Shown: positions 7,431-16,913 of the stretch, piece after piece
Numbering within the stretch: the stretch's first letter is position 1
Layout: each line of letters begins with the position of its first letter
NCBI RefSeq assembly: GCF_017115165.1
Contig: NZ_JABXKF010000188.1
Span: 1 to 64,000 of the forward strand
Reading direction: 5' to 3'
Length of the DNA: 64,000 nucleotides
Source of the DNA: Nostoc sp. LPT
GTDB lineage: Bacteria > Cyanobacteriota > Cyanobacteriia > Cyanobacteriales > Nostocaceae
Made by a program: the position numbers and the translations under genes
Notes under the pieces: model-generated
What the model saw: only the letters and a program-made list of their open reading frames with translations
Told to the model about the DNA's origin: nothing
Database searches by the model: none

Positions 7431-8168
7431 CTAACTTCTTGACCACTCATCAATAATAGTCAAAATTGTTTTATCACCCAATTTTATTGTTTTATCACCC
7501 AAGCTTTTAACAGACTTTACTACATCGCGGTAATCTTCAAACTCTTGCTTCGGTTTCTTGCGTCGAGCATCAAATATGCCCTTTGCAAGTTTTTCTGCAC
7601 CAGAAATTCTAGCACGTTGCAACTTTATAGATAACTCGTCTTTATCCAAAGTGTTCAATAAACTAAGCGGATTACTCTGGTCACTCTTTTGGGGAATAAG
7701 GTTTTTAAGTTGCTTTAACTGACTATCTATTCTTTGTCTTTCTTGTATAAATTCTGACTTAAACTCATTAAATTGCTTCTCAAGACGTAATTCTAAATTT
7801 GCCAGACGTGGTTCTAACTTTGTTGTTTCAGACTGTAGTGTTACTTGTTTAGTAGAAGAATCAATTTTTTTGAGAGATGCAACTTGCTTTACTACTAAAT
7901 CCTCTAATTTTGGAGCAATGACAAAAGCATTAACCATCTCACCTTGTCGAGGATTTTTTTCTCTTGCCCTGACAGCAGCATAATATTCAAAATGTCCATC
8001 AACTACCGTATAGCTCTCTACTCCGGTAACTTTCACAACTAATGGTCTGATAATTCCTCCAGTTTCTATAATTATGTCTGCGAGGTTTTCCAAATCAGCC
8101 ACAGAAAAATTTGATCGAGGTTCATTAGAAGTAATGCTTTTTACATCTACCAAAGAAAAATTTATCAT
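7431..8168 (-). CDS. ParB-like N-terminal domain protein with coiled coil
   Basis: 245 residues. Residues 1-90 resemble the ParB/Srx N-terminal domain (LENLADIIIETGGIIRPLVV, VVDGHFEYYAA), but the arginines of the usual GERRxRA CTP-binding motif are replaced in DGHFEYYAA. Residues about 95-160 form a predicted coiled coil, and no clear helix-turn-helix of chromosomal ParB is visible. Near the C-terminus a small duplication gives LGDKTIKLGDKTI. The ATG overlaps the stop of the upstream parA-like gene (ATGA, 8165-8168), so the two are co-translated. It probably partners that ATPase; whether it binds a centromere-like site is unknown. Confidence 0.75.
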   Translation of the reverse strand: MINFSLVDVKSITSNEPRSNFSVADLENLADIIIETGGIIRPLVVKVTGVESYTVVDGHFEYYAAVRAREKNPRQGEMVNAFVIAPKLEDLVVKQVASLKKIDSSTKQVTLQSETTKLEPRLANLELRLEKQFNEFKSEFIQERQRIDSQLKQLKNLIPQKSDQSNPLSLLNTLDKDELSIKLQRARISGAEKLAKGIFDARRKKPKQEFEDYRDVVKSVKSLGDKTIKLGDKTILTIIDEWSRS

Positions 8169-9550
8169 TTATTTAACCCTATTCCTATTAACACTTCATC
8201 TGCTAAAATGTCAAATTCCATAGCAGATTTTTGAGCATCTGATTTTACTTCTTCTGCATATTTAACAACAGATTTTGGGTCAGGATATTCTAAATCTCCA
8301 ACTGTTATAGTCTGATTCATGCATTCGGATAGTACGGTTCTATCATAAATTACTGTTTCCATCAAAGGCAGATTGTAACGTTCTAAAATCACGCTCCTTT
8401 GCTTAGGAAATGTATATTGTAAAAATTTAGAATTGGTAGAGATTTTTGAAGCCAGTATACCCATTAATATAATGTGTGGTTTTCCTATCATTTCTCTAAA
8501 TTCATTAACTTCTATAATAAAGTTTTTGACACTTAACAATCCTTGGTTTGCAAATGGCTTTAAATCTGAAGGAATTATCAGGTAATCAGCAGCGACAAGT
8601 GCGACTTTAGCATATAAATCTCTAGATGGAGGTGTATCAATAATAACAATGTCATATTCTTGTTCTACTTTTTTTAATTTCGTAACTAGCCTAGTCTTGC
8701 TAGCATCAATTTGATTAAGTTTATATTGTCCTTCTATTAAATTAATATGTGCAGGAATAACATCTAATTCAGGATTGTTAAAATAATGTGACTTTCTAGT
8801 TACATCGGGTATTAAGTAAAAGTCACCTGATTCTAATAAATGATAGATATTAGAATCTCGTAAATCATCATCTTCATCAAATTGAAATTTTATTAATCCT
8901 GTAGCAAAAGTTGTATTTGCCTGGGAATCTATATCAATTAACAGTACCCTTTTACCTTTTTTGCTCAATGCTGCTGCAAGATTAACTGCAACAGTAGTCT
9001 TACCAACGCCACCTTTATTGTGGTAAATTGCGATTGTTTTCATTGAATTTTCCCTCTTGGTTTCAAAATTGAAATTATTTTCAGTTATTTTAAATTCTGA
9101 TTTATCTACTAACTGTCGTTCTTTTAGACTCTCTTTACCAATTAAACTTTTAATATTCTCTAACTTAATTTCGACTTCTTTCCCAGAGCATTGAAATATT
9201 AACTGAATATCAGTCTGTAATTTTTGATAAATTCTAATCTCTTTGCCATTAGTCAGCAATCCATATCTGACATGCAAACTGGTTAAATAATGCCTGAGTC
9301 GAAGAACATGATGATTTAAGTTTTGTTTGGGATGCTTCGCTTCCATGACGACACTCAGCGGTGAGTTGGCATCTAAGACAAAGGGAATCACTTGTGCGGC
9401 AAATGCCAAAAAATCTAAGCGGATGCTACCAACGGCAACTTCTTGATGCCAGGTGTCAGGAGTATAACCTAGCTGTGGTAGCAAATATTGCACTATGAGT
9501 TTGCTTTCAACTTCGCTTTCGTTACGGCACAGCTCAGGATTAAAAGGCAA
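8165..9550 (-). CDS. HsdR-N-terminal-domain/ParA-family ATPase fusion
   Basis: 461 residues read from a TTG start preceded by AGAGGT. Residues about 10-125 resemble the HSDR_N nuclease-like domain of type I restriction enzymes, with a candidate PD-(D/E)XK site (Asp46 in IRLDF, Glu70-x-Lys72 in VVMEAKH). From residue 170 it is a ParA/MinD ATPase: deviant Walker A HNKGGVGKTT, VLLIDIDSQANTT, and VIIDTPPS. Met170 (9041-9043) is itself preceded by AGAGGG at good spacing, so a stand-alone ParA may also be translated. The parB-like gene overlaps by 4 bp. Partition modules usually lack a nuclease domain; here the pair sits in a chromosomal patch of decayed genes. Function unknown: mobile-element maintenance and defence are both possible. 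Confidence 0.8.
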   Translation of the reverse strand: MPFNPELCRNESEVESKLIVQYLLPQLGYTPDTWHQEVAVGSIRLDFLAFAAQVIPFVLDANSPLSVVMEAKHPKQNLNHHVLRLRHYLTSLHVRYGLLTNGKEIRIYQKLQTDIQLIFQCSGKEVEIKLENIKSLIGKESLKERQLVDKSEFKITENNFNFETKRENSMKTIAIYHNKGGVGKTTVAVNLAAALSKKGKRVLLIDIDSQANTTFATGLIKFQFDEDDDLRDSNIYHLLESGDFYLIPDVTRKSHYFNNPELDVIPAHINLIEGQYKLNQIDASKTRLVTKLKKVEQEYDIVIIDTPPSRDLYAKVALVAADYLIIPSDLKPFANQGLLSVKNFIIEVNEFREMIGKPHIILMGILASKISTNSKFLQYTFPKQRSVILERYNLPLMETVIYDRTVLSECMNQTITVGDLEYPDPKSVVKYAEEVKSDAQKSAMEFDILADEVLIGIGLNK

Positions 9551-9808
9551 TATTTTTCTACCTCTAAATAATTATTGGACTTAAGACAAAACCTAATATT
9601 TGCTAGATTATGGCATAGCCTTAATTATGTTGAGTGATAGAAATCACTTATAAAATCTAAAAAATCATCATAAAATTAGTACTTATGCTGATAAAGTAAC
9701 CAATTTTGAAAGCTAGCCATATTCAAAATTAACAGGCTACGTATGTATTTCCCCATTATCCCTGTAAATGGCTAAAATCAAAGTGTTTACCTATTTGCGC
9801 TAAAGGTT
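9551..9808. other. Divergent intergenic region
   Basis: 258 bp between the divergent parA-fusion and zinc-ribbon genes. No clear repeat or operator was recognised, although promoters for both should lie here. Confidence 0.4.
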
Positions 9809-15753: not shown

Positions 15754-16189
15754 TAATACTCCTTTACCTGAAAAAATAACCTAATTTTTTAGTAATTCCA
15801 TAGTGGACAATTTTTTAAAAGGTGTCCTGAGTAAAATTATTTATTTTTTTAAAGACTAAAATTTGAGTAATTTCACCAATTTCATTTTCCTCGCTGCTTC
15901 TAATAACCGCAGTGGTTTTACAAAGAGCAACTAAGGGCGAGTTTATGAAAAATTTGGATGTATGAGAAATCTGTAGAAAATAGATATCTTGCACAAACTT
16001 GTAACGTCTCCTAACCCCTTCTCTCAATTTTGGGAGAAGAGGAGCCAATTTCAAAGTCCCTTTTCCAAAATTGTGAGAGGGATTTAGGGTGAAAGTTCAT
16101 TGATTCATGCAAGAAGTCTAGTAAACCCGCTCTTACTTTTTTTTCACTCAAAACTTAGTAAATTAAGGCAGAAATTGCTACAGCAAAAG

Positions 16190-16440
16190 CGGAAGTTCCT
16201 ACAGGGATGACGGAAGTCGCTACAGACTGCGCGAAACACCGAAACGTCAAGACGGAAGCTTCTACAGACTGCGCAAAACACGGAAACGTCAAGGCAGAAG
16301 CTCTTGCAGGGAAGGCGGAAGTTCCTACAAACTGCGCGAAACACCAAAACGTCAAGGCAAAAGTTCCTACAGACTGCGCGAAATACCAAAACGTCAAGGC
16401 GGAAGTTGTTACAGACTGCGCGAAACACCGAAACGTCAAC
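16190..16440. repeat. 42-bp tandem repeat array, about six units
   Basis: Units of 42 bp built from ACGGAAGTCGCTACAGACTG, CGCGAAACACCGAAACGTCA and AG repeat about six times. One unit is shortened by an internal deletion near 16310. Frames stay open on both strands because the period is a multiple of three (14-residue units such as TEVATDCAKHRNVK), but I see no evidence of translation. Confidence 0.9.
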
Positions 16441-16913
16441 CCTGGAGCAATATTTTTTGATGTATTAGGGACTTCCAACAAATAAATTATCCAATCTTGC
16501 AGGGATTGACCAAGATTTTCCACAAACCGATAGCTTGCTCATACTCTTGCTGATTGCGAATCGTAAGCAAGGGTGCGATCGCACTTTGTTTGAGCTAATG
16601 AATGTTGGGTTTTCTTACGTCAACCCAACCTACAGGGATGAGCGATCGCACTATGTATAGCAAGGGACTGGGGACTGGGTGAAAAGCCTTTTTGTATCTA
16701 AGTTTTATCATCTGTTAATGTCCTAACCACCAAGGCTTTTGCTATATTTCGAAACGCATCTTTTCTTTGCTGACATTAATAAATTAAGGGGCTTGTATCC
16801 TTTTTTTTATTGCATGAGTGCCTTCCTGGTTTTGGTCACATTGCGGAATTAGCTGATTCAAACTTGAATCTATATGTAATTCTAAGTTTCACATCGATGG
16901 TTTACAGAGAATT
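16441..16913. other. Intergenic stretch with dispersed repeats
   Basis: Contains HIP1 sites and a GGGTT/AACCC inverted repeat at 16614-16628. A 26-bp element at 16627-16652 (core CAGGGATGAGCGATCGCACT) recurs at 17573-17598. No gene is supported. Confidence 0.6.
16627..16652 (+). repeat. 26-bp direct repeat, copy 1
   Basis: Matches 17573-17598 with one mismatch (core CAGGGATGAGCGATCGCACT versus CGGGGATGAGCGATCGCACT). The two copies flank the secreted-protein gene. Confidence 0.85.

Follow-up and report, generated by a model that had tools for sequence, protein, structure and literature searches.

The window analysed here is a stretch of 64,000 nucleotides from Nostoc sp. LPT (contig NZ_JABXKF010000188.1, positions 1 to 64,000), and this study concerns two overlapping genes on the minus strand of its positions 7431-9550, a predicted HSDR_N-ParA fusion followed by a ParB-like partner. 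The genome carrying the window is 8.6 Mb, and the nearest named homologues of the fusion are from Nostoc. As held by an earlier prediction made from the sequence alone (the original prediction), a nuclease-like domain and a ParA ATPase are joined in one frame, which remains open over 461 amino acids (aa) from a TTG start without an internal stop.

Other HSDR_N-ParA fusions were sought, and the copy in the window is not alone. All 169 loci examined gave a ParA match; after removal of L148, which lacks the motif, and of 16 exact duplicates, 152 non-redundant cyanobacterial loci remained. The HSDR_N part was fused in frame in 131 of these, spanning 61 genera, and was missing from 21, of which L062 bears another domain; a standalone fluke fusion was ruled out by this count. 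No description of an HSDR_N-ParA fusion was found in the literature searched, most subscription papers and preprints lying outside that search.

In the N-terminal part, the Pfam family HSDR_N_2 matched residues 17-110 at 1.4e-5 with 25.6 bits, the cut-off being 25; HSDR_N scored under its cut-off on the window fusion. The weak HSDR_N_2 match was judged to be no fluke, since in individual Pfam scans of 72 aligned homologues HSDR_N_2 was matched in 66 and HSDR_N in 46 at 1e-3. The residues Asp46 and Glu70-x-Lys72 sit where the original prediction had put them, and all three were kept in 127 of the 131 fused genes, the sister genes L066, L113 and L114 having glycine at position 46. A decayed copy was ruled out by the open frame and the intact triad.

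In the AlphaFold model of the fusion (mean predicted local distance difference test, pLDDT, 83), the ExK strand, the next helix and strands are present, but the D46 region is poor (residues 51-62 below 50, D46 block mean 54). In Foldseek and VIA structure searches with the fusion, the lists were taken up by matches to the ParA part, so that absence from them does not speak against a fold. A search of structure sequences with the N-domain profile gave no HsdR, the best match being 7ue2, whose whole-chain value of 1.4e-5 is made up of four stretches with E 3.6-9 apiece. The nuclease assignment stands on profiles and motif conservation, and the domain looks putatively functional. It has also to be considered that the N domain could be a catalytically idle DNA-binding or dimerisation module, with the operon serving as an McdAB-like cargo-positioning ParA system. 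This is improbable in view of the ExK motif, intact in 130 of 131 fused genes, the triad counts above and the D, E and K residues intact in 32 of 32 genes of a second clade described below. Further HSDR_N_2 genes were noted in the same genome at G000:C105:9040-9381 and G000:C67:54514-54837, one of them in a 248-aa frame.

In the C-terminal part, AAA_31/ParA matched residues 170-350 (1.5e-53). The Walker motifs are intact, as had been predicted: K179, K184, D206, D208 and D305, which we take to fill the deviant Walker A lysine, Walker B and switch Asp motif roles, were invariant across the 72 aligned homologues.

The partner matched ParB_N (3.8e-7), and its gene overlaps the fusion stop by 4 nt. 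It reads DGHFEYYAA at the position of GERRxRA, the cytidine triphosphate (CTP) motif of ParB, with G58, E61 and Y62 invariant in 48 sequences, and the canonical motif was not found when the motif region was compared. No helix-turn-helix was called in the partner by Pfam, and its model shows one long helix (residues 119-157, mean pLDDT 69), which suggests a coiled coil. These observations agree with the original prediction on the altered CTP motif, the coiled coil and the lack of a clear DNA-binding helix-turn-helix, and the composition, with a nuclease-like domain on ParA and a non-standard ParB-like partner, is unlike that of a standard partition cassette. A profile made from 36 of these loci was used to seek the partner, which was present in 130 of the 131 fused loci and in 19 of the 21 unfused ones; in 96 of 149 loci its presumed start overlaps the stop of ParA, and in 42 of 149 it lies within 30 nt of that stop. 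The features of the gene pair are collected in Table 1.

Table 1. Features of the fusion gene and its partner (positions in the window).
Feature	Position	Strand	Remarks
HSDR_N-ParA fusion gene	8165..9550	-	461 aa; outer start TTG at 9548-9550
Shine-Dalgarno-like AGAGGT 5' of outer TTG start	9560..9565	-	Read from sequence; upstream stretches of homologues compared
Putative PD-(D/E)XK-type HSDR_N domain, residues 1-138	9137..9550	-	Pfam and conservation
D46 codon, putative metal ligand	9413..9415	-	D in 128/131 fused genes
E70-A71-K72 codons, ExK motif	9335..9343	-	E in 130/131, K in 130/131
Hypervariable linker, residues 139-169	9044..9136	-	20-145 aa in homologues, median 41
Internal Shine-Dalgarno-like AGAGGG	9052..9057	-	Signal enriched among homologues
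Internal start codon Met170, beginning of predicted free ParA	9041..9043	-	Start codon in 130/131 fused homologues
ParA ATPase domain, equal to predicted free ParA, 292 aa	8165..9043	-	
ParB_N-like partner gene, 245 aa	7431..8168	-	4-nt overlap with ParA stop
Partner ParB/Srx-type N domain, residues 1-85	7914..8168	-	DGHFEYY replacing GERRxRA
Partner predicted long helix, residues 119-157	7698..7814	-	Coiled coil by inference
Partner helical C-terminal domain, residues 161-245	7434..7688	-	RsmH-insert-like; helix-hairpin-helix-like by eye

Elsewhere in the window, short repeat-rich open reading frames with SSKVQ-type and FRAVC-type repeats lie on both strands at 60-380 and 16144-16523.

Candidate internal and outer starts of the fusion gene

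The AGAGGG that the original prediction had read as a ribosome-binding site was found as described, 8 nt ahead of the Met170 codon, and in the window the outer TTG with its AGAGGT and the inner ATG with its AGAGGG stand as two candidate starts. In the 131 fused genes, the first ParA codon was ATG in 106, GTG in 19, TTG in five and TTA in one; the GTG codons occur across 12 genera, and all five TTG codons within one genus. In an early set of 40 loci, the same position had been ATG, GTG or TTG in 36 of 36 genes then counted as fused, L062 included. For the codon background of the fused genes, GTG makes up 16.8% of the other Val codons and TTG 18.3% of the other Leu codons. In the 19 GTG genes, codons were mixed in 17 of 18 further conserved-Val columns and uniform in one (column 6, GTT in 15 of 15); a second Met-rich column (239) drifts to TTA, CTA, TTT and more. 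The internal start codon showed 10 changes on the ParA tree, and no P value is given for the start-codon bias because related genes are not independent.

The internal Shine-Dalgarno (SD)-like score had a mean of 3.44, whereas 300 synonymous resamplings gave 2.84 ± 0.05 and never more than 3.01, and the SD duplex energy was -3.06, compared with -1.40 ± 0.17 in 60 resamplings. An SD-like match of at least 4 nt was present in 70 of the 131 fused genes. Larger SD-like values appear between offsets +36 and +48, where the Walker A region lies; we attribute them to its glycine codons. L136, the sole TTA gene, is also alone among the fused genes in lacking a partner and in having lost ExK (one case); its ParA frame, on the minus strand, also carries a long repetitive linker.

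There is strong comparative support, all of it from sequence, for the internal ribosome-binding site and start codon at the ParA border being kept by selection, which makes it very probable that a single gene makes both the fusion and free ParA, as had been suggested from the window. That the internal start is an unused fossil of an old gene border has very little probability: such a fossil would fit the 21 genes without a scored HSDR_N fusion, which have ATG (19) or GTG (2) at this place, and the 34 of 131 fused genes without a 3-nt SD-like match, but it is opposed by the near-exclusive use of start codons and by an SD signal at the synonymous level over 61 genera.

For the outer start, the codon was found by counting back from a conserved RNE motif (missing from five of the 131 genes), the true starts being deduced. 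In the 126 motif-bearing genes this presumed outer codon was TTG in 64, ATG in 24, GTG in 15 and a non-start codon in 23. This presumed start is weak, and since its codon is most often TTG, we infer that the nuclease-bearing form is the minor product.

Spread of the fusion, a second clade and a helicase variant

With the fusion as query, matches were obtained in 139 of 291 genomes of the order at E 1e-30 (ParA-only and weaker matches included), in 87 of 388 genomes of the class at E 1e-60 and in 30 of 194 of the phylum. In a quickly built tree of ParA, 9 changes were needed for the fused state, 81 for genus labels over 76 genera (many single-member) and 54 for family labels over 33 families, and from these figures the fusion family is coherent within genera, with some mixing between families.

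A related fusion (FNNKGGVGKTT) was observed in L062 and, by our own count among 242 genomes of the class, in no fewer than 36. Among 32 genes of this second clade, which include the broken L062 gene and the pair L357/L386 with an identical border, the codon at the ParA border was ATG in 29, GTG in one and ATT in two, both from one family. Their SD score was 3.75, compared with 3.16 ± 0.14 and above all 500 resamplings, with at least 4 nt matched in 15 of 32. A ParB_N-like partner follows the fusion in 28 of 31 loci; in nine partners scanned for modules of DNA-binding type, HHH_3 was found in three (two over the cut-off), HeH in one and Rho_N/SAP in one (both under it) and none of these in four. 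No such module was called in the partner from the window, whereas in L062 the partner's Rho_N match exceeds the cut-off. None of the 36 second-clade genomes had a full-length first-clade fusion in the class scan at E 1e-60, and four of them (G313, G345, G395 and G425) had a ParA-only first-clade match; this pattern may be explicable by host kinship.

L062 has an AAA_12 superfamily 1 helicase part attached to ParA in place of HSDR_N. The helicase part ahead of it shares this frame and is followed by a stop, and the helicase looks interrupted (one genome). The cluster at L062:8579-16165 comprises helicase-ParA, ParB-like, broken second-clade HSDR_N-ParA, ParB_N-Rho_N, Cas4-like and DUF2779 genes.

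Genomic setting and possible function

The original prediction had placed the gene pair in an accessory patch, a setting that the flanks do not support: the side with purD (named by eye), a histidine kinase and a zinc-ribbon gene was kept in four of four same-genus loci (L038, L039, L040 and L077), and the opposite flank is different in two of them, L039 and L040. A ParA-like gene of about 298 aa that belongs to the cyanobacterial core, found in 231 of 282 genomes (e.g., L041:8013-8909 and G000:C173:35102-35983), repeatedly adjoins the fusion operon, mostly divergently. Counted by hand, at least 20 genomes have it no more than about 3.2 kb from the fusion; in 12 of 40 large loci, either this gene or a relative was near the fusion. 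In L063 and L065, ParA-only genes without a partner lie 20 nt from a divergent core-type ParA.

Around some unfused ParA/ParB pairs, defence genes were observed. In L166 (33-2823), PglZ-like and BrxL genes of BREX type lie directly upstream of the pair, BrxL at 55 nt, and in L168 (217-3073) the same arrangement was seen by eye, with a BrxL look-alike at 64 nt. In L163, GmrSD/HEC-05 lies 25 nt upstream, together with a type IIG-like protein. NADAR is near the pair in L171, with look-alikes in L172 and L173 by eye, and a nucleotidyltransferase was found in L167 and a kinase-like protein in L165. Seven of ten proteins near unfused loci hit PADLOC at 1e-5, having been chosen for looking interesting from eight of the 21 loci, with no matched background.

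The function that we consider most likely, at a confidence a little below an even chance, is ParA-directed restriction of foreign or aberrant DNA (DNA policing), which is favoured because of the defence neighbours of some unfused pairs and the helicase swap in L062. The locus would be a chromosomal two-gene, three-protein module of fusion, free ParA and ParB/Srx-fold adaptor, with a restriction-type PD-(D/E)XK domain tied via a variable linker to a canonical deviant-Walker ParA. ParA proteins dimerise in an ATP-dependent manner and bind DNA non-specifically. ATP-bound ParA dimers would coat DNA, the fusion subunits being diluted among free ParA; the partner would mark or sense particular DNA and drive ParA turnover; and cutting would take place wherever two nuclease domains come together, either within a dimer or between adjacent dimers. 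The ratio of armed to unarmed ParA would set the nuclease dose, with free ParA governing the frequency of cutting and the partner directing or releasing the nuclease, and ParA/ParB could act as a chassis on which the nuclease module is exchangeable. We hold only tentatively the full version of this proposal, in which a policing machine shared by two cyanobacterial clades consists of a ParA lattice armed by limited nuclease subunits via two starts, a ParB-fold adaptor with a DNA-binding tail and exchangeable nuclease modules (HSDR_N, and once, in L062, a helicase part).

Several observations weigh against DNA policing. Among 128 proteins (130-800 aa, a range from which very large defence proteins would escape) at positions -3 to -1 and +2 to +4 of 28 of the 40 large fused loci, 47 PADLOC models were matched at 1e-12, and the 25 of these shown hit one or two members each. 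The commonest Pfam families there were ParA-type ATPases, glycosyltransferases and desaturases, with Uma2 in four, and the flanks of fused loci are mostly housekeeping. Housekeeping-type genes also adjoin unfused pairs in L055, L056, L159, L174 and L175 (by eye) and in L169 and L176 (by Pfam). The N and ParA domains are equally conserved, with a mean pairwise identity of 58.2% each and no sign of fast evolution; the gene tree is, as noted, largely coherent by genus; and 34 fused genes have less than 3 nt of SD-like match before the internal start.

The chromosomal, genus-coherent and housekeeping settings favour genome maintenance, in which ParA and its ParB-like adaptor would segregate the chromosome copies of polyploid cyanobacteria or position them, while the nuclease would resolve junctions or trim damaged DNA. 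Many loci lie on chromosome-sized contigs, and the genome carrying the window has only three ParB_N matches: the window gene, a second on a contig of 18.8 kb and a third under the cut-off. A review passage states that the classical ParA/B/S mechanism is missing from cyanobacteria (PMC7766704). A maintenance role is nevertheless rather unlikely, given a distribution over part of the order only (the 139 of 291 genomes above) and the BREX and GmrSD genes beside unfused pairs. In addition, no exact parS (TGTTNCACGTGAAACA) was found in the own genome, other centromere types being possible; one place had one mismatch, and at up to two mismatches there were 20 matches, four places being counted on both strands, compared with 13 for the control.

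A former mobile-element stabilisation cassette of toxin-antitoxin-like type, with the nuclease held by free ParA and the partner, is very unlikely. ParA and ParB are typical of plasmids, and a nuclease with a tightly linked partner would suit such a cassette; against this, none of the nine plasmid and none of the 73 phage records found cover 80% of the fusion query, by which a plasmid or phage origin was rejected, and the loci listed for viral contigs, at least 80 in all, mainly match the ParA part, one from residue 57 onward, which does not show the fusion to be absent there. Among the matches listed for genome contigs, one named full-length fusion was present, L177, from an uncultured cyanobacterium.

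ParA ATPases are known as positioning machines, and a conserved ParA with an apparently intact nuclease motif, alongside unarmed ParA from that gene, would mean that the DNA-bound ParA switch controls cleavage of DNA as well. A gene with two products is what codon-level evolution predicts in these 61 genera, and armed and unarmed ParA from one gene would suggest an undescribed way of policing or tending DNA. The finding also touches on the role of ParA/ParB-like proteins in polyploid cyanobacteria, which are said to be without classical ParABS (PMC7766704).

Comparison with known systems

Compared with ParABS (Soj/Spo0J), the gene pair shares the ParA fold, the intact Walker residues and a downstream gene with a ParB_N domain. 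It differs in the putative nuclease-type domain on ParA and the two predicted starts, in the partner without GERRxRA and without a called helix-turn-helix, and in the lack of an exact parS found in the own genome. PadC is a ParB-like CTPase that works with ParA; the window partner differs from ParB in the CTP motif region. With the type I restriction subunit HsdR it shares the predicted HSDR_N-type domain (the 66 of 72 members above), whereas the ATPase here is AAA_31/ParA rather than a superfamily 2 motor, and at the P-loop ResIII matched only weakly (E 0.078, below its cut-off). HsdM and HsdS were not noticed by eye among the open reading frames of the window, for which no profile scan was made. 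Judged by its sequence features, the gene pair fails defining features of ParABS and of HsdR.

The McdAB carboxysome positioning system likewise has a cyanobacterial ParA-family ATPase with a partner, and McdA was a structural match; unlike it, the partner here is ParB_N-like and the ATPase carries a putative nuclease-type domain, and by sequence Soj-type ParAs score higher (6iub 1.7e-26, 6non 3e-12). The best PADLOC hit of the fusion was the candidate system PDC-M28B (6e-11), but only residues 130-210 align, and no kinship is shown because an unrelated ParA hits the model too. The defence modules GmrSD and DndB, whose ParB-superfamily parts are discussed as nucleoside triphosphatases or nucleases (PMC12839542, PMC10853773), and BREX differ in that ParA does not occur as a word in the main texts of these two papers, and they resemble the gene pair in having a ParB-fold protein beside a DNA-attack enzyme.
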